DNA from: Flammeovirgaceae bacterium SG7u.111
GTDB lineage: Bacteria > Bacteroidota > Bacteroidia > Cytophagales > Flammeovirgaceae
Assembly (NCBI GenBank): GCA_034044135.1
Contig: CP139021.1
Span: 3,735,635-3,799,634 of the forward strand
Reading direction: 5' to 3'
DNA: 64,000 bases
Shown here in pieces: positions 2,045 to 8,884 of the stretch. The notes under the pieces were generated by a model that did not search any database, was not told the origin of the DNA, and worked only from the letters and a program-made list of their open reading frames with translations. Numbering within the stretch: the first letter of the stretch is position 1; every line of letters starts with the position of its first letter. Both the position numbers and the translations under genes were made by a program.

Positions 2045-2140
2045 TATTGAAGCACCAGTGCTATTTTACTAAAATGGTTTAGTAATGACAATCAATGCTT
2101 TGTTGAAAAATAGGTTATGCTTTTTTTGATCAAACACTTA
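2045..2140 (+). repeat. Dispersed intergenic repeat, copy A
   Basis: About 96 bp filling the spacer between the aldehyde dehydrogenase and the dehydratase gene. It shares both ends and much of the interior with two other copies at 6291-6393 (inverted) and 7206-7297. The left end reads AAGCACCAGTGCTATTTTA and contains the short palindrome AGCAC-CA-GTGCT. The right end reads TTGATCAAACACTTA. The stretch starting AATAGGTTATGCT is nearly identical to copy C. No coding potential was seen. Confidence 0.8.
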
Positions 2141-2166
2141 AAGACTAATAAAAACTACTATATGGG

Positions 2167-3300
2167 TTACTCTCTGAGGAGGTACTTGTGAAGAGCATCT
2201 TCATTGAATTCGAAGCCAAGCCCGGGCTTATCACTCACTTTTATTTCCCCATTTACTACCTTCATATCGCTACATGTCAACTCATCGCGTAAGCCATTTT
2301 CTGTTCGGTCATATTCCATAAAACAACCAGCTGACATCAACCGCCCAGGCATTGTATCTAAGTTACTAATAAAATGAGAGGCAGCGGCAATGGCTATCCC
2401 TGTACCCCATGTATGCGGCACTATTTCCACGCCATACACTGAACACAGTACTGCTATCCTTTTAGCCTCTGTAAGCCCTCCTGTAGCGCAAATATCTGGT
2501 TGCACAATATCAACCGAATTCGATTTTAGTAAAGTCTGGAAACCAAAACGTAGGTATTCGCATTCTCCACCCGAAATAGGAATATTGGTTTTTGACCTCA
2601 GCTCAGCGTACTGATCGTAATATTCGGGGGAAATAGGCTCTTCGAACCATGAGATATCATATTTTTCCACTGCTTGCGCAAGCTGAATAGCTTCCCTGAG
2701 GTTATAGGCATGGTTTGCATCTATCATCAGTTTCACATTTGGGCCAATCGCTTCCCTAATTTTTTGTACATTCTCGATGTCTTGCTCTATGGTAAGCCCA
2801 ACCTTCATTTTCATGGCTTTGTAGCCTTGTTTCACATATTGCTTGGCTTCGGCAGAAAGCTTTTCGCTCATTTCACCACCATTGGTAAAATACATTCCCG
2901 TGGCGTAAGGAGTGATAGAATCACGCTTTTTCCCTCCTAACAAAAGGTGGACGGGTTGCTCCAATATTTTCCCTTTCAAATCCCAAAGCGCTACGTCTAT
3001 AGCACTTATAGCCGAGACTAAAATACCACGCCTAGCAAAATCCAAGGTACGGCGGTACATCGTGCTCCATATCGTTTCTATTTGCAAAGGGTTTTGCCCA
3101 ACAACAAAAGGAGTGAGAAGATCAACCCCTGCTTTTATCACGTTAGCAGGTCCATATCCTTCACCCCAACCCACATGACCTGTATCGCTTGTTATCTTCA
3201 CAATGCAGATACGCCTTTCGGAATATTCCCACTGTGAAAAATAAAAGCTTTCTTTTAGTTTATCGGTTAAGATGAAACTTTCTATTGATTTGATTTTCAT
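2167..3300 (-). CDS. Mandelate racemase/muconate lactonizing enzyme family sugar-acid dehydratase
   Basis: A 377-residue enolase-superfamily protein, taking the ATG at 3300. A longer reading to 3429 would run into the permease gene. The mandelate-racemase subgroup signature is complete: the KMK motif (Lys164, Lys166), metal ligands Asp194 (MIDANH), Glu220 (WFEEP) and Glu246 (SGGE), and the Asp269/His296 dyad (QPDICATGG, PHTWG). These enzymes abstract the alpha proton of an acid sugar and usually dehydrate it to a 2-keto-3-deoxy acid. With RhaT-like transport upstream and dgoK downstream, a galactonate-, fuconate- or rhamnonate-type dehydratase is likely. The substrate is inference. Confidence 0.9.
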   Translation of the reverse strand: MKIKSIESFILTDKLKESFYFSQWEYSERRICIVKITSDTGHVGWGEGYGPANVIKAGVDLLTPFVVGQNPLQIETIWSTMYRRTLDFARRGILVSAISAIDVALWDLKGKILEQPVHLLLGGKKRDSITPYATGMYFTNGGEMSEKLSAEAKQYVKQGYKAMKMKVGLTIEQDIENVQKIREAIGPNVKLMIDANHAYNLREAIQLAQAVEKYDISWFEEPISPEYYDQYAELRSKTNIPISGGECEYLRFGFQTLLKSNSVDIVQPDICATGGLTEAKRIAVLCSVYGVEIVPHTWGTGIAIAAASHFISNLDTMPGRLMSAGCFMEYDRTENGLRDELTCSDMKVVNGEIKVSDKPGLGFEFNEDALHKYLLRE

Positions 3301-3329
3301 TTGATAAATCGGTTTCGGTATAAGATGAA

Positions 3330-4349
3330 TTAGGATACACCATTGGAATAACCTAAAATGATAGTCGCTACTATAAGCATAAACAAGCCAGCCAACAACC
3401 AAGCAAAAGGACCAGATGCGCCCTTCCATTCTTTATTAAGATAAGCCCATACGTTACTTACCACAAGGGAAACTCCTAGCAAAATTGGCCACCCAATTAC
3501 GGGACCCATATCTCCCATAAGTGTTGCGCCTTGCCCGTACACGCCAAGTGCGCCGAACCAAAGTAGCCCCGCTCCTATTGACCAAGCATAAGCTTTGGAA
3601 GAATTGGGCACTGAAAAGGAAGACCAAGTGTTGTTTTTGAAAAGCAAGAAGATGGCGTACCCAGCATTCATGATGTAAGCGCCCCAGAGCACAACTACCC
3701 AAATTGCTAAGCTACTATTTCGGGAAATAACTCCTGCAGCTTCGGCTGCCTGCCCTACTGGCTGCGCATTTACGAAACCTACATTGAGGAGCGCCGACAA
3801 CACACCACTTACAATTGCGATGATTAGGCCTGTTTTGAGATTACTAGAAGAAGTGCCTTTGTCTTGCTGGGTAAGCTTGTCTTTTTTGATGCCCGCATAG
3901 GCTGTAATTGCTACGCCAACGATCATGACAAAAACCCCGAACATCACATAGGGGAAAGCTGGTAGACTTGTTACATTATCTATTTGAAAAAAAGGAATGA
4001 GGCTACCTACCGCCGAGCAAACACCCATCACTATTCCGTAGGTTAGAGAGATACCGATGAAGGGGATACTTTTTCCAAACATGATCCCGCCTATGCCCCA
4101 AAGGAATCCAAATAACATACCCAGCCAGATGGCTTGCGAAGGGGCATCGGCAATTACGCTGAACAGATCGGGGACAACCATCATTGCCCAAACGGTGGGG
4201 ACAAGTACCATGGCGACTGTGGCGTGAACCAACCACCATGCTTCCCACTTGAGGGGGGACATAAATTTCATTCCAAGCCCAAAAGAACCTTGGAATATAC
4301 TGGCGAATAATACTAGTAGTAAGGGTAGAAATGCAAATTCCATAGTCAT
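3330..4349 (-). CDS. RhaT-type (L-rhamnose/H+ symporter family) permease
   Basis: A 339-residue protein with about ten hydrophobic segments over its whole length, resembling the L-rhamnose-proton symporter RhaT of the drug/metabolite transporter superfamily. Support comes from an N-terminal WEAWWLVHATVAM-like segment, the FLWGIGGIMFGKS segment near residue 90 (WGIGN in RhaT), and conserved glycine-rich helices. It would import a monosaccharide or sugar acid across the inner membrane. It is the first gene after the regulator and lies 29 bp before the dehydratase start, so it probably leads the operon. A second in-frame ATG lies two codons downstream. Rhamnose specificity cannot be asserted. 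Confidence 0.85.
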   Translation of the reverse strand: MTMEFAFLPLLLVLFASIFQGSFGLGMKFMSPLKWEAWWLVHATVAMVLVPTVWAMMVVPDLFSVIADAPSQAIWLGMLFGFLWGIGGIMFGKSIPFIGISLTYGIVMGVCSAVGSLIPFFQIDNVTSLPAFPYVMFGVFVMIVGVAITAYAGIKKDKLTQQDKGTSSSNLKTGLIIAIVSGVLSALLNVGFVNAQPVGQAAEAAGVISRNSSLAIWVVVLWGAYIMNAGYAIFLLFKNNTWSSFSVPNSSKAYAWSIGAGLLWFGALGVYGQGATLMGDMGPVIGWPILLGVSLVVSNVWAYLNKEWKGASGPFAWLLAGLFMLIVATIILGYSNGVS

Positions 4350-4401
4350 ATTTTTATTTCTTACAAAGAAAAGTCAATATGACAAAAACTGATTGGCTGA
4401 A

Positions 4402-4432
4402 TTTACCCTACACTTACGCTATTTTACCCTAC
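4402..4432. promoter_or_regulatory. Direct repeats TTTACCCTAC, candidate AraC-family operator
   Basis: Two exact copies of TTTACCCTAC start at 4402 and 4423, exactly 21 bp apart, or two helical turns. They lie between the AraC regulator stop and the permease start, about 55-85 bp before the permease ATG. Direct half-sites two turns apart are the usual binding arrangement of AraC-family activators. That the regulator at 4454-5353 binds here is inference. Confidence 0.55.
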
Positions 4433-4453
4433 TTGCAAAGCTTGGAAGGGCAA

Positions 4454-5353
4454 CTATAACGTACTGCGGTATCCCTGCGGGGTACTTCCCGTGATCTGCT
4501 TGAATTGTTTGTTGAAGTTGGTAATGGAGTTATAACCCACCCTATAGCAAATTTCGGATACGGGCAAATCGTCTTGTACCAACAAGCGCGAGGCATTCCT
4601 GACGCGCAGTTCGTTGAGGAACTGGGTAAAAGATTTGTTGGTCATTTTCTTGAAAAAACGGCAAAAGGAATTGGTTGTCATGCAGGCTACATCAGCCACA
4701 TCGTCAAGAGTAATATGGTTACTGTAATTATCCGACATGTACTTTAACACAGCATCGAAACGGTGGGAATGCTTGGTAGTGTATTGGCGCATATCTGTAG
4801 AAGAAAGCACTTGTTTATCTTGTGTAACTGAAAGGCGGCAAAGAACATCTAGCATCTTTACCAATTGCTCCGCAGGTGATAAATCGATCATATTGATCAA
4901 TTCTTTGTGCAGAGCTTTACTCATACTGTCACCAAAACTCAGCCCAAACTTAGATTCCTCTAGCATTTGGTTTATCCCCAGAAAAGCAGGATTATTAAAC
5001 GTGCCTTCTCCTATAAAGTCCTTTGTAAATTTTAAGATAATGGTCTTTACCTTATTTGTGTCTTCTTCTTCATAATATGAAGCATCGTTTCGCCAAAGGT
5101 GCGGCACATATGGACCAACTAATACTAAATCGCCCGGAAAAAAATGGGATACACTATCTCCTACAAAACGAACACCTTTGCTTTTGGAGATGTACAATAG
5201 CTCATATTCGGAATGATAATGCCAAGAAGAATCCAGACATGGAATTTCCTTCTTAGTTATATCAAGCTTTTTATTAACGGCGCTATCCGAATTCTTCAAA
5301 ATCAACTTCATGGGCACAAAACTAGTCTTTTTCTCATATTCACCATAAACCAT
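4454..5353 (-). CDS. AraC family transcriptional regulator with N-terminal cupin-like domain
   Basis: A 299-residue regulator. The N-terminal ~170 residues form a cupin-like sensor domain (HYHSEYELLYI and the FPGDLVLVGPYVPHLW segment). The C-terminal ~100 residues carry the double helix-turn-helix of AraC proteins, ending ISEICYRVGYNSITNFNKQFKQITGSTPQGYR. It probably senses a sugar or sugar acid and activates the downstream permease, dehydratase, dehydrogenase and kinase genes, since it is adjacent and co-oriented. An alternative start is Met15 at 5311. If that start is used, the palindrome at 5350-5375 would lie wholly upstream of the coding region. Confidence 0.92.
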   Translation of the reverse strand: MVYGEYEKKTSFVPMKLILKNSDSAVNKKLDITKKEIPCLDSSWHYHSEYELLYISKSKGVRFVGDSVSHFFPGDLVLVGPYVPHLWRNDASYYEEEDTNKVKTIILKFTKDFIGEGTFNNPAFLGINQMLEESKFGLSFGDSMSKALHKELINMIDLSPAEQLVKMLDVLCRLSVTQDKQVLSSTDMRQYTTKHSHRFDAVLKYMSDNYSNHITLDDVADVACMTTNSFCRFFKKMTNKSFTQFLNELRVRNASRLLVQDDLPVSEICYRVGYNSITNFNKQFKQITGSTPQGYRSTL

Positions 5354-5375
5354 TTTTAGGTACTTACCTAAATGG
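5350..5375. promoter_or_regulatory. Palindrome overlapping the AraC gene start, possible autoregulatory site
   Basis: The core TAGGTA-CT-TACCTA is a perfect inverted repeat, extended by CCATTT on one side and AAATGG on the other with two extra T residues in the left arm. It covers the ATG at 5353 or sits about 40 bp upstream of the alternative start at 5311. Its sequence is unlike the TTTACCCTAC repeats downstream. Confidence 0.35.
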
Positions 5376-5749
5376 ACTATGGTACAAAAACAGATTATGA
5401 AAGAATATGTTCCATAAAAATGGCTTCACCTCCCAAATGCCGGAAAGGTGAAACCCTATATTTTTTTTATCGGGTTTACTTTGTTGGTTAGTTAACTTCT
5501 ACCTGAGAACCGAGCTTTATAAATGTCGCCTTTTATTGTAAAACGAATATCCTCTTCCGAATAAGACATTTGGGCAAAGTGATCGTTTGCAGCGAAATAG
5601 ATAAAATTTAAACCTGCTCTAAACTCCCACCTCATTAAAATTCACTTTTATAAAATATTTTAAGAAAAGGGTGTAACTTTTTGGAAAGGGGGTAGTATCC
5701 TAATCAAATCAACGAAAAACCTCATACTCGACTTTTACTTTATGAAGCA
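5376..5749. other. Intergenic region between divergent AraC and sigma-factor genes
   Basis: About 370 bp between divergent transcription units, so it should hold both promoters. A short hairpin (TTCACCT at 5425, AGGTGAA at 5446) is followed nine bases later by eight T residues, but no gene reads into it. I saw no coding sequence and no confident promoter. Confidence 0.5.
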
Positions 5750-6292
5750 ATGACTGACGAAAATGCAATGAAAGCGGTCAGTGAAGGAGACTTGGACAAG
5801 GCGGCTATTCTATTTGAGCGATACCAGAAGAGCATGTTCAATTTCTTTTTGAAGCTAACCTACGACAGGGAGGCTAGTCAAGACATGACCCAAAATTTAT
5901 TTTACAGGATAATCCGCTATCGAAAAAGCTACAACAGTCAGATGCTTTTTAGACCTTGGATTTACCAGATGGCGAGGAACGTTCAAGCCGATCATTACCG
6001 CAAGGATAAAATAAAGAAATCGGAGTTTGCCGATATGGAGTCAATCTCGATAGAACTGATGGAAAGCCATGCCGAAGCAGACCAACAAGAGCGGGAAATC
6101 AATTTGCACAAGGCTCTAGCGAAGCTTGAAAAAGAGCAACGAGAAATATTGATCATGAACAAGTTTCAAAAGTTGAAATATGAGGAAATTGCCAAAATTT
6201 TGGACACCACGCCCGGTGCGGTGAAAGTGAAAGCCCACAGAGCAATCAAAAAATTGAAAGGTATTTATTTTATGGTCGAAAAATCAAAATAA
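5750..6292 (+). CDS. ECF-type RNA polymerase sigma factor
   Basis: A 180-residue sigma-70 family protein of ECF size. Region 2 lies around residues 20-90 (MTQNLFYRIIRYR and FRPWIYQMARNVQADHYRK). Region 4 lies around residues 120-175, with a helix-turn-helix in YEEIAKILDTTPGAVKVKAHRAIKKLK. It directs RNA polymerase to a stress or envelope regulon. The next gene encodes a membrane-anchored protein in the usual anti-sigma position, followed by two exported DUF4097-like proteins, so the four probably form one unit. The stop codon TAA is supplied by the first bases of an inserted repeat (copy B). Confidence 0.95.
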   Translation: MTDENAMKAVSEGDLDKAAILFERYQKSMFNFFLKLTYDREASQDMTQNLFYRIIRYRKSYNSQMLFRPWIYQMARNVQADHYRKDKIKKSEFADMESISIELMESHAEADQQEREINLHKALAKLEKEQREILIMNKFQKLKYEEIAKILDTTPGAVKVKAHRAIKKLKGIYFMVEKSK

Positions 6293-6393
6293 GTGTTTGA
6301 TCAACAACAAGCACTCCCTAGCATTCAATAAAGTATTGATTATCAATGCATAAGTTGTTTTATTAAAATAGCACTGGTGCTTAAGTTTCAATA
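6291..6393 (-). repeat. Dispersed intergenic repeat, copy B (inverted)
   Basis: About 103 bp, in reverse orientation relative to copies A and C. Its reverse complement carries the left end TTAAGCACCAGTGCTATTTTA and the right end GTTGATCAAACACTTA. It starts inside the sigma-factor stop codon and ends shortly before the anti-sigma start. With copy C it brackets the anti-sigma gene as an inverted pair. Confidence 0.8.
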
Positions 6394-6406
6394 AACGAAG
6401 TGAATT

Positions 6407-7207
6407 ATGGAAACTAAAAATATTAAAAACAAATTGCTGGACTACATTGAAGGTTCTCTTCCTGACAACGAAATGCTGGAAGTGAAGCAAGCGATAAAGC
6501 AAGACGATGCCCTCTTCAGGGAATACGACGAGCTACGGATTGTAATGGAAGGGATGGATAAAAGCCCGAAGCTGGATAGCCCCGAGGCAGTTGGGATGGA
6601 TTTTTATAAAATGCTGGAAGGGGAAAAAGAAAAGCAAAAACTTGGGGCATTAGGCAGCACTTTCCAAGTGATAAAAAACACATGGAACGGAAGCATCACA
6701 CTGAAAATAGCGGCATCTGTTGCGCTTTTCCTAATGGGCTATTTCATTGACAAGCAGATAGAAGTGAAGGATATTCAAACTACTGAAATTGCCCAGATGC
6801 GGGAGGAAATTGAGTCTACCAAAACTCTGGTGATGCTCACGCTCCTCAAGCAGCAATCTGCCAGCGAGCGGATAAAAGCAATTGGCTATACTTATGATTT
6901 TGAAAATGCCGACTCGAGGGTGGTAGATGCGCTGATCAGCACGCTTAAAGATGACAAAAATGTAAACGTTCGCTTGGCTGCAACCGAGGCTCTTGCGCAT
7001 TTTGCCCACAACCCAAAAGTAGTGAATGCACTGCTGGAAACCTTGCCAGAGCAAACGGATCCGGAGATCCAAATCATCATTATAGATCTGCTGGTGAAGA
7101 TGAACGAGACCCGAGCCCGGCAACCTATCGAAACACTTTTGAATGAACAAGAGCTGATCGACATAGTCCGCTCAAAAGCCCAAGAGGGAGTAAGTAAACT
7201 TTTATAA
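6407..7207 (+). CDS. Membrane-anchored anti-sigma-factor-like protein with HEAT repeats
   Basis: A 266-residue protein. The N-terminal ~95 residues are acidic and helical and begin with a LLDYIEGSLPDNEM segment typical of anti-sigma N-domains, though no zinc ligands are seen. One transmembrane helix lies near residues 98-116 (IAASVALFLMGYFI). The C-terminal ~110 residues form HEAT-like helical pairs (VNVRLAATEALAHFA, DPEIQIIIIDLLVKM) and would lie in the periplasm. Position just after an ECF sigma gene supports an anti-sigma role. That role is inference from context and topology. The HEAT domain may sense an envelope partner. The gene is flanked by inverted repeat copies B and C. Confidence 0.75.
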   Translation: METKNIKNKLLDYIEGSLPDNEMLEVKQAIKQDDALFREYDELRIVMEGMDKSPKLDSPEAVGMDFYKMLEGEKEKQKLGALGSTFQVIKNTWNGSITLKIAASVALFLMGYFIDKQIEVKDIQTTEIAQMREEIESTKTLVMLTLLKQQSASERIKAIGYTYDFENADSRVVDALISTLKDDKNVNVRLAATEALAHFAHNPKVVNALLETLPEQTDPEIQIIIIDLLVKMNETRARQPIETLLNEQELIDIVRSKAQEGVSKLL

Positions 7208-7297
7208 GCATCAATGCTATTTTAATAAAAAACTTGACATTGATAACCAGTACTTTATTTGAACAATAGGTTATACTCTTTTTTGATCGAACACTTA
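7206..7297 (+). repeat. Dispersed intergenic repeat, copy C
   Basis: About 92 bp. The left end TAAGCATCAATGCTATTTTA overlaps the anti-sigma stop codon. The right end is TTGATCGAACACTTA. The right half is nearly identical to copy A, while the middle (CATTGATAACCAGTACTTTATT) is closer to copy B. It lies directly before the DUF4097-like gene at 7334, so it may also shape that leader. Confidence 0.8.
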
Positions 7298-7333
7298 GAA
7301 AAATAAATCAACCAAAAATCATCATTTAACATC

Positions 7334-8107
7334 ATGAGAAAATTCATCGTCTTTTTGACTGTGGCATTGCTAACTAGTGCCTATTCTTTCGCCCAAGAGT
7401 TCAAAACCAGCTTCGGTTCTTCTAATGGGAATACGATTACCATCAATATCTTTGACTGTGACCTCATCGTGCAAGGACATGATTCAAAAGATGTGATCAT
7501 CACCGCCAAGGGCTATAAAGCCCCTCCCAAACGAGCCGAAGGCCTCAAGCCTCTCTACAATACGTTTTCTGACAATACCAACATTGGGCTTTCGGTGAAG
7601 GCTGAAGGCAGCAGTATTACGGTAGACAGGGCTAGCCGAGAAGATATTGACTACACCATAAAAGTACCTAAGGGCACCAATGTGATCATCAATGAGATGA
7701 ACTACTACGGAGATGGTTTTACCGTGAAGGATATTTCGGGAGAAATAGAGATCAACAGCAAAAGTTCCGACATCAAATTGGTAAATGTGACTGGCCCTGT
7801 GGTAGCTAGCTCTACCAATGGAAATTTTGAGGCAGTTTTCAGTAAATTGAACCAAAACAAACCGATTTCCATCAAGTGCATCAATGGCTATATAGACATC
7901 ACCTTGCCGGGCAATACCAAGGCAAATCTTGAAATGAAATCGATGAATGGGGAAGTTTACACCAACTTCGAAGTAGAGCAAGCTGCCGATGCGAATGACC
8001 CTCAATACAATACTGCCGCAAAGAAAATTGATGCCAAGATCAATGGTGGTGGAATACTTCTCAGTCTTTATGCTACCAACGACGATATTTATCTGAGGAA
8101 AAAATAA
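7334..8107 (+). CDS. Exported DUF4097-like beta-repeat protein
   Basis: A 257-residue protein with a clear signal peptide (about residues 1-20, ending SFAQ). The mature part is rich in short beta strands and resembles the DUF4097/DUF4098 adhesin-like fold, with recurring I.S.SS.I.L...G and INGYI.I..P segments. Such proteins are commonly encoded next to ECF sigma/anti-sigma pairs. The molecular role is unknown. It may be an envelope target or sensor of the sigma system. The next gene encodes a smaller paralogue. Confidence 0.7.
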   Translation: MRKFIVFLTVALLTSAYSFAQEFKTSFGSSNGNTITINIFDCDLIVQGHDSKDVIITAKGYKAPPKRAEGLKPLYNTFSDNTNIGLSVKAEGSSITVDRASREDIDYTIKVPKGTNVIINEMNYYGDGFTVKDISGEIEINSKSSDIKLVNVTGPVVASSTNGNFEAVFSKLNQNKPISIKCINGYIDITLPGNTKANLEMKSMNGEVYTNFEVEQAADANDPQYNTAAKKIDAKINGGGILLSLYATNDDIYLRKK

Positions 8108-8182
8108 CGTCTTTCATACAACCGCAGAAAATTAATTGCACACCTCTTTCTGCGGTCTCTTTTTACTTCTAACATCAGAAAA

Positions 8183-8884
8183 ATGAAAAACTATCTTTTC
8201 ATAGGTGTATTGCTTTGCCTTTTCCAACCTGCTATTGCCCAAAGAATAGTGGAAAAAACATTCCCAAGCGGAAAAATAAAGAAAGTAAAGCTAGACCTAA
8301 AAATGGCTCAGCTCATAACTGTAACAACTTGGGAGCAAGACGAGGTTTATTTCAAAGCGTCTATTGACTTGAACAATGGAAAACTAGATGACTCGCTGAA
8401 GCTTAGTTTTGAGAAAAACAACGATTTATTGTTCATTAGCTCAAAGGTTGATGTCAAATTCAACAATTGGATTAGCAAGGAGACTTTCGATAAATGGCAA
8501 AAGGAAAACAAGCCTTTTTACTGGGACGACAAGGAAAACTTTGTAGTTGCGGAATTGCTGTACGAGCTAAAAATCCCAAAAAACACTATTCTCGAAATTG
8601 CAAGCATCAATGCAGACGTGGAGTTGCGTGGAGTTAGCTCAGTTGCAAAGGTGAAAACCATCAACGGTTTTGTAGACATGGATTGGCTGGAAAAAGCAGG
8701 CGCCGATATAAGTCTCAAAACAATAAACGGAGAAGTTTATTCAGATATGGACATCTCCTTTCCTAACTTCAAAAAGTATCCCATAGTTGGTTATGAACTT
8801 CAGGGCAAATACAAGCAGGGTGGTACAAAGTTGCAACTCGAAACTATTAACGGAGATATATTCTTTAGAAAAGCTAAAAACTAG
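8183..8884 (+). CDS. Exported DUF4097-like protein, paralogue of preceding gene
   Basis: A 233-residue protein with a signal peptide (about residues 1-19, ending AIAQ). It shows the same beta-rich pattern as the protein at 7334: the KTINGFVDMDW, KTINGEVYSDM and ETINGDIFFRK segments repeat an INGx(V/I) motif about every 30 residues. It lies 75 bp downstream in the same direction, consistent with a tandem duplication within the sigma-factor operon. A bidirectional terminator follows. Function unknown. Confidence 0.7.
   Translation: MKNYLFIGVLLCLFQPAIAQRIVEKTFPSGKIKKVKLDLKMAQLITVTTWEQDEVYFKASIDLNNGKLDDSLKLSFEKNNDLLFISSKVDVKFNNWISKETFDKWQKENKPFYWDDKENFVVAELLYELKIPKNTILEIASINADVELRGVSSVAKVKTINGFVDMDWLEKAGADISLKTINGEVYSDMDISFPNFKKYPIVGYELQGKYKQGGTKLQLETINGDIFFRKAKN

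Follow-up and report, generated by a model that had tools for sequence, protein, structure and literature searches.

A TA-flanked MITE family dispersed in Flammeovirgaceae and its probable mobilization in trans by an IS630-type transposase

The window analysed here, a stretch of 64,000 nucleotides from Flammeovirgaceae bacterium SG7u.111, harbors three look-alike sequences of roughly 90 bp within 5.2 kb, two of which supply the stop codon of the ORF before them. This arrangement raises the question of what these sequences are, how they reached their present sites and why they coincide with stop codons. In line with a first-pass annotation, all three are located in short spacers, have their ends and much of the middle in common (78% mean column identity) and contain no ORF of their own. 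The sites indicated by this annotation were correct as well, whereas the exact ends were a few bases off. The features are as follows, the bounds of copies A, B and C taking in one flanking TA per end.

2049 to 2140, forward strand: MITE copy A, core between flanking dinucleotides; the left TA has decayed to GA
6290 to 6383, reverse strand: MITE copy B, inverted, separating a sigma-factor-like ORF from the ORF that follows; the former terminates at the first TAA of the copy
7205 to 7297, forward strand: MITE copy C, whose TAA terminates the 266-aa ORF before it; prior to insertion, this stop is predicted to have been TAG
2049 to 2062, forward strand: left-end palindrome of copy A, GAAGCACCAGTGCT (in intact copies TAAGCACCAGTGCT); the stem pairs covary across subfamilies
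6370 to 6383, reverse strand: left-end palindrome of copy B, TAAGCACCAGTGCT
7205 to 7218, forward strand: left-end palindrome of copy C, TAAGCATCAATGCT, a compensated variant
2117 to 2140, forward strand: right end of copy A, on the reverse strand TAAGTGTTTGATCAAAAA..., resembling the left end of the resident IS630-family element
5750 to 6292, forward strand: host ORF of 180 aa, RNA polymerase sigma-factor-like by eye; stop codon in common with copy B
6407 to 7207, forward strand: host ORF of 266 aa, anti-sigma/HEAT-repeat-like by eye; stop codon in common with copy C

The first base of copy A is a G, where the other copies contain a T. A single local duplication as the origin of the three copies is ruled out by their pairwise identities: identity among A, B and C is 74-76%, and every one of them has equally close or closer counterparts outside the cluster, as exemplified by copy C and a copy at 2.63 Mb (82% identity). 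Since the three are no closer to one another than to distant copies, the cluster does not stem from local duplication. When approximately 24 copies are placed at random, about 0.003 triples are expected within 5.2 kb, a rough estimate made for a window that was chosen for the cluster.

How widely is the element dispersed? A BLAST search of the organism's own 7.7-Mb genome with copy B yielded 12 full-length copies with E values from 1e-43 to 4e-9, including A (9e-15), C (2e-13) and nine more full-length copies (3e-20 to 4e-9), plus weaker matches. Chance does not account for similarities of this strength. A covariance model built from these 12 strong copies detected 24 full-length copies at E<0.01. 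Besides the 12 strong copies, the family in this genome includes about 12 full-length copies of greater divergence, and it is dispersed as the first-pass annotation had assumed. The mean identity of the 12 strong copies is 76% (maximum 85%), indicating that they are old.

The same covariance model revealed relatives in two genomes belonging to a single further genus of the family. Moreover, when named genomes were scanned with a pattern, these sequences turned up again in Flexithrix dorotheae DSM 6795 and Flammeovirgaceae MAG.050, and a MAG labelled Draconibacterium was matched as well. Using a broader model built on all subfamilies with a match threshold of E<=0.01, we obtained 21 matches in the own genome, at least 144 in Flexithrix, at least 150 in MAG.050 (an assembly that is 84% complete) and at least 115 in the Draconibacterium-labelled MAG, where 67 matches are found at E<=0.001. 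One further genome of the order contains 14 matches. The model search detected no element in the other genera of the family and in nearly all of the 241 genomes of the order, and a wide scan of the class with the left-end pattern stayed at about background level in the 394 other genomes sampled, which indicates a patchy distribution. A match in a Prevotella MAG (L176) from an early class-wide scan looks like chance. The copies also differ in age: 14 copies of one MAG.050 subfamily show a mean identity of 97%, some being identical, compared to 76% among the own-genome copies, suggesting that a helper acted there recently. The commonest Flexithrix subfamily, with a mean identity of 83%, would be fitting for a relic.

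The element is 92-94 bp long in the own family and 89-94 bp in most copies, below the limit of about 600 bp used for MITEs; its length remains near 93 bp across subfamilies and reaches 103 bp in the Draconibacterium-labelled MAG. The core of about 90 bp begins with AGYACC..GTRCT and ends with ..YACT, and together with the flanking TA the ends read TAAG...CTTA. Full inversion of the ends is limited to this TAAG...CTTA, positions further in being imperfect. The subfamilies differ in their middles and keep the left end TAAGYACNNGTRCT as well as the right end ...ACTTA. In the left hairpin AGYACNNGTRCT, pairing is present in 95% of the cells and 12 cells are changed on both sides, a value reached by none of 500 shuffles, with such counts inflated by kinship among the copies. 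Beyond this hairpin, no helix with clear covariation was detected, the right end included, and folding of the element RNA is weak. It is possible that the left palindrome serves as a dyad for a dimeric protein or forms a single-strand hairpin.

Comparison of filled and empty sites reveals how the element enters the DNA. TA is present at both ends of 75 of the 91 collected copies, 53 of which have the same length within 1 bp, and bases beside the target display a mild, roughly symmetric preference of the form T-TA-A. In MAG.050, IS200-like paralogues differ by one element copy, the empty site reading GAGTAAATATCGTAAATT and the filled site GAGTAAATA[...]TATCGTAAATT. An orthologous locus is filled in MAG.050 (L188) and empty in Flexithrix (L068), and at another site within this locus the situation is reversed, with Flexithrix filled and MAG.050 empty. 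In addition, we observed two nested insertions, in L070 (Flexithrix) and L177 (MAG.050), where one subfamily lies inside the right end of another and splits GAATTACTACTTA at its central TA (GAATTAC|TA|CTTA). Each of these cases fits insertion at a TA with duplication of that TA. The element is thus demonstrably mobile and dispersed, with defined ends and a TA repeat. The exact ends, TAAG...CTTA, and the 2-bp duplicated target that the first-pass annotation had proposed to define could accordingly be determined.

The nature of the target also bears on the stop codons. As noted before, the TAA of the element terminates the preceding ORF for copies B and C, which had been taken to suggest insertion at gene ends. 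Removal of the element in silico restores a TAA at the site of copy B and a TAG at that of copy C. With genes called by ORF length only, 10 of 72 non-coding insertions are situated in the TA of a stop codon, the corresponding share of all non-coding TAs being 2.1% in these loci and 4.5% in the window. After insertion into such a TA, TA+A, a stop, always remains; joined to the AG of the element it would rebuild TAA, and the insertion would be harmless. The TAA stops seemingly supplied by B and C arise because the element can use the TA of a stop codon as its target, TA+AG then rebuilding TAA. Insertion at gene ends is real, but it is not separate from the TA target: the enrichment is explained by the target together with tolerance, and a real preference for stop codons may be superimposed on it.

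Which enzyme moves the element? The own genome harbors an IS630-family element (PF13358, E 3e-28) in six complete or partial copies. The four full copies are about 1.07 kb long with TA at both ends, the left end reading TA-AGTAAGTGGACAAAAGAAACC and the right end, on the reverse strand, TA-AGTACCTACCCAAAAGAAATC (in short form TA-AGTAAGTGGACAAAAG and TA-AGTACCTACCCAAAAG). This resident family, which is of the Tc1/mariner type, resembles the MITE in having TA on both sides, TAAGTA...TACTTA termini and a left end that matches the MITE right end (TAAGTAAGTGGACAAAAG). When placed on the profile of the MITE right end, the IS630 left end scores 13.7 bits, a value that none of the 127,952 positions in the window attains outside the three MITE copies. 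The MITE right end in genome G486, TAAGTAAGGGTACAAAA, is identical to the resident IS630 left end at 15 of 17 positions, and candidate ends of IS630 relatives elsewhere in the family (G015, G017) are similar, e.g. TAAGTACTAGGACAAAAG. As the transposase with matching ends that the first-pass annotation suggested looking for, the resident IS630 is a candidate at one end; its right end corresponds to the MITE left end only in TAAGTACC.

The resident IS differs from the MITE in its transposase ORFs and its length, and since its inner sequence is unrelated, the MITE is no mere deletion derivative of it; judged from the sequences, the element rather appears to belong to the IS630 sphere. We found no autonomous element with both MITE ends. 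The resemblance of a stretch of a MAG.050 IS630, AGTGATTGAACA, to the MITE right-end consensus was discarded, as the homology runs on upstream in two copies, which makes this an inner stretch. Left-end motifs not followed by a MITE, considered as traces of a parent, proved in the loci searched to be divergent or truncated MITEs, G429 or G486 subfamily members, copies fetched after the search, or chance. The DDE_3 catalytic domain yielded no match at E<=0.1 in Flexithrix or in the Draconibacterium-labelled MAG (G429), each with about 100 or more copies, and the copies in these genomes therefore look like relics. Some IS630-bearing relatives (G002, G015, G017) contain no MITE, and the IS630 genes of MAG.050 are broken or located at contig ends, their guessable ends being of another type.

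Taken together, these results argue that A, B and C represent old copies of a TA-inserting MITE, probably moved in trans by an IS630-type transposase, a reading to which we assign a probability of about 0.78. A non-coding core of approximately 90 bp inserts at a TA, which then stands on both sides, and an IS630-family DDE transposase would move it in trans by cut-and-paste. The copies in the own genome would represent relics of past activity, and one subfamily in the related MAG may have jumped recently. Two further points speak against this helper: an ordinary IS630 end does not explain the one-sided covarying hairpin, and a TA repeat is also expected from a single-strand transposase that cuts after TA.

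It is conceivable, albeit unlikely, that the family represents a self-contained class of about 93 bp with a strict covarying left hairpin, TAAGCACNNGTGCT, free middles and a patchy occurrence over several families and probably two orders of Bacteroidota, served by an unrecognised enzyme outside IS630. Somewhat less probable is mobilization by a single-strand HUH/Y1 (IS200/IS605-type) transposase that recognises the left hairpin and cleaves 3′ of TA, in which case the TA repeat would arise without true duplication. The position of the hairpin directly at the left end, its compensatory changes and the lack of a covarying hairpin at the right end would agree with such an enzyme, and G000, G003 and G009 encode Y1 transposases. 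However, the target is conserved only at the TA, with its mild and symmetric T/A preference; IS200/IS605 enzymes usually require 4-5 target bases. Moreover, the ends are inverted, the right end matches that of an IS630, and no examined Y1 gene locus has the element as its own end. The single adjacency, with an IS200-like gene at L079, was rejected as evidence of a parent, since the element is inserted into this gene and the empty paralogue is known.

We give still less credence to a TA-duplicating DDE transposase other than IS630, e.g. of the TA-type IS5 group or of an undescribed family. The failure to recognise a DDE_3 domain in two MITE-rich genomes and to find an autonomous parent is compatible with this idea; the specific match of the right end to own-genome IS630 ends, together with the similar candidate ends in G015 and G017 and the MITE end in G486, disagrees with it. 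A spread of REP/BIME elements by a RAYT transposase is highly improbable. The element is short, intergenic and abundant and contains the tetranucleotide TAAG beside a hairpin, and RAYT-like genes exist in Flexithrix and the own genome. These genes, however, are not flanked by the element and by eye have other palindromes in their flanks, and a REP is a palindrome of 20-40 bp, in contrast to the present element, which measures about 93 bp, has two defined ends that differ and shows a TA repeat. Of the original proposal of a MITE- or REP-like element, the first half is hence borne out by dispersed copies, defined ends, TA repeat and empty sites, and a REP/RAYT origin is largely refuted.

Equally improbable is a conserved cis-acting element (promoter, terminator, RNA switch or protein-binding site) multiplied by selection and not by transposition, since despite the covarying left palindrome and a Bacteroidota -7-like TAnnTTTG near the right end of 48 of 91 copies (about 2% expected), a TTG at promoter spacing from it occurs in only 5 of 91, gene starts face the right and the left end 50 times each, an unbiased orientation that argues against a directional regulatory role, Rfam contains no family matching in the window, only the left hairpin clearly covaries, and filled and empty sites as well as nesting reveal insertion. 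This origin is refuted, though individual copies could have been co-opted.

Returning to the TA-inserting MITE, its closest counterpart in kind is RUP, the repeat unit of pneumococcus, which is about 107 bp long, has ends like those of IS630-Spn1 and is proposed to be moved in trans by it (PMC2229807, PMC3049150). Both are A+T-rich, gene-free and about 100 bp long, with TA termini, 100 or more copies per genome and ends similar to a resident IS630; phylum and sequence are different, and the likeness is one of type. Unlike RUP, the present element has a covarying palindrome at its left end and a short inverted repeat (TAAG plus a few positions, 9 bp being listed for RUP), and its family occurs in several genera and probably two orders, some of its hosts lacking the helper IS. 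Correia/NEMIS and ERIC elements (PMC2229807) are likewise small and non-autonomous with TA termini and a duplicated target, but they have other inverted repeats and strong RNA folding, whereas our element folds weakly, with an RNA consensus limited to the left hairpin. Among MITEs in Bacteroidota, BrickBuilt is an intergenic one of Porphyromonas gingivalis with a 23-nt minisatellite (PMC4596501), and the Cardinium MITE derives from IS982, is confined to one strain and is proposed to depend on its parental IS (PMC9769881). In contrast to both, the family described here is TA-targeted and IS630-like. In the literature searched, we found neither the MITE end sequence nor a study pairing MITE, IS630 and Bacteroidetes. 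The family is new and of a known type; its size, copy number, TA repeat and empty sites are those of a MITE.

The finding raises the question of how the hairpin at one end stays almost unchanged across orders while the middles diverge and the helper transposases vanish. For annotation, it means that such insertions are to be expected inside stop codons, with the gene left intact. Bacteroidota thereby gain a MITE family that is TA-targeted and IS630-linked, numbers hundreds of copies and displays filled and empty sites, nesting, and both recent and relic subfamilies.

Copies B and C of the MITE occupy two spacers in a row of consecutive ORFs (window 5750-8884), which encode sigma-factor-like, anti-sigma-like and two related secreted-protein-like products. 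Approximately 12 bp from its right end, the element carries the string TAnnTTTG, resembling the Bacteroidota -7 box, which is retained in half of the copies across all lineages. The string is not accompanied there by a well-placed -33 box.

A variant of the element occurs at L177:2324 (Flammeovirgaceae MAG.050), L070:1675 (Flexithrix dorotheae), L179:4951 and L165:2987. Its hairpin at the left end, TAAGCACC..GTGCTCCACACCGGGTACTATTAT, is enlarged in a way that resembles a duplication or nesting of one end.

In addition, an IS630-like transposase gene of MAG.050 (locus L200, contig C74, reverse strand, about 500-650) is broken by an A+T-rich insert of ~140 bp with inverted ends, AGGTTAAACGCAT...ATGCGTTTAACCT, and an apparent direct repeat of ~10 bp, CAAAGCTATT. 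This insert looks like a member of another MITE-like family, unrelated to the ~93-bp MITE.

Finally, a sister family of the MITE, ~103 bp in length, is present in >60 copies in the DZBP01 MAG (loci L161, L162 and L198). This MAG is labelled Draconibacterium orientale, by name a different order, and either horizontal spread or a wrong name of the MAG could account for the presence of the family.
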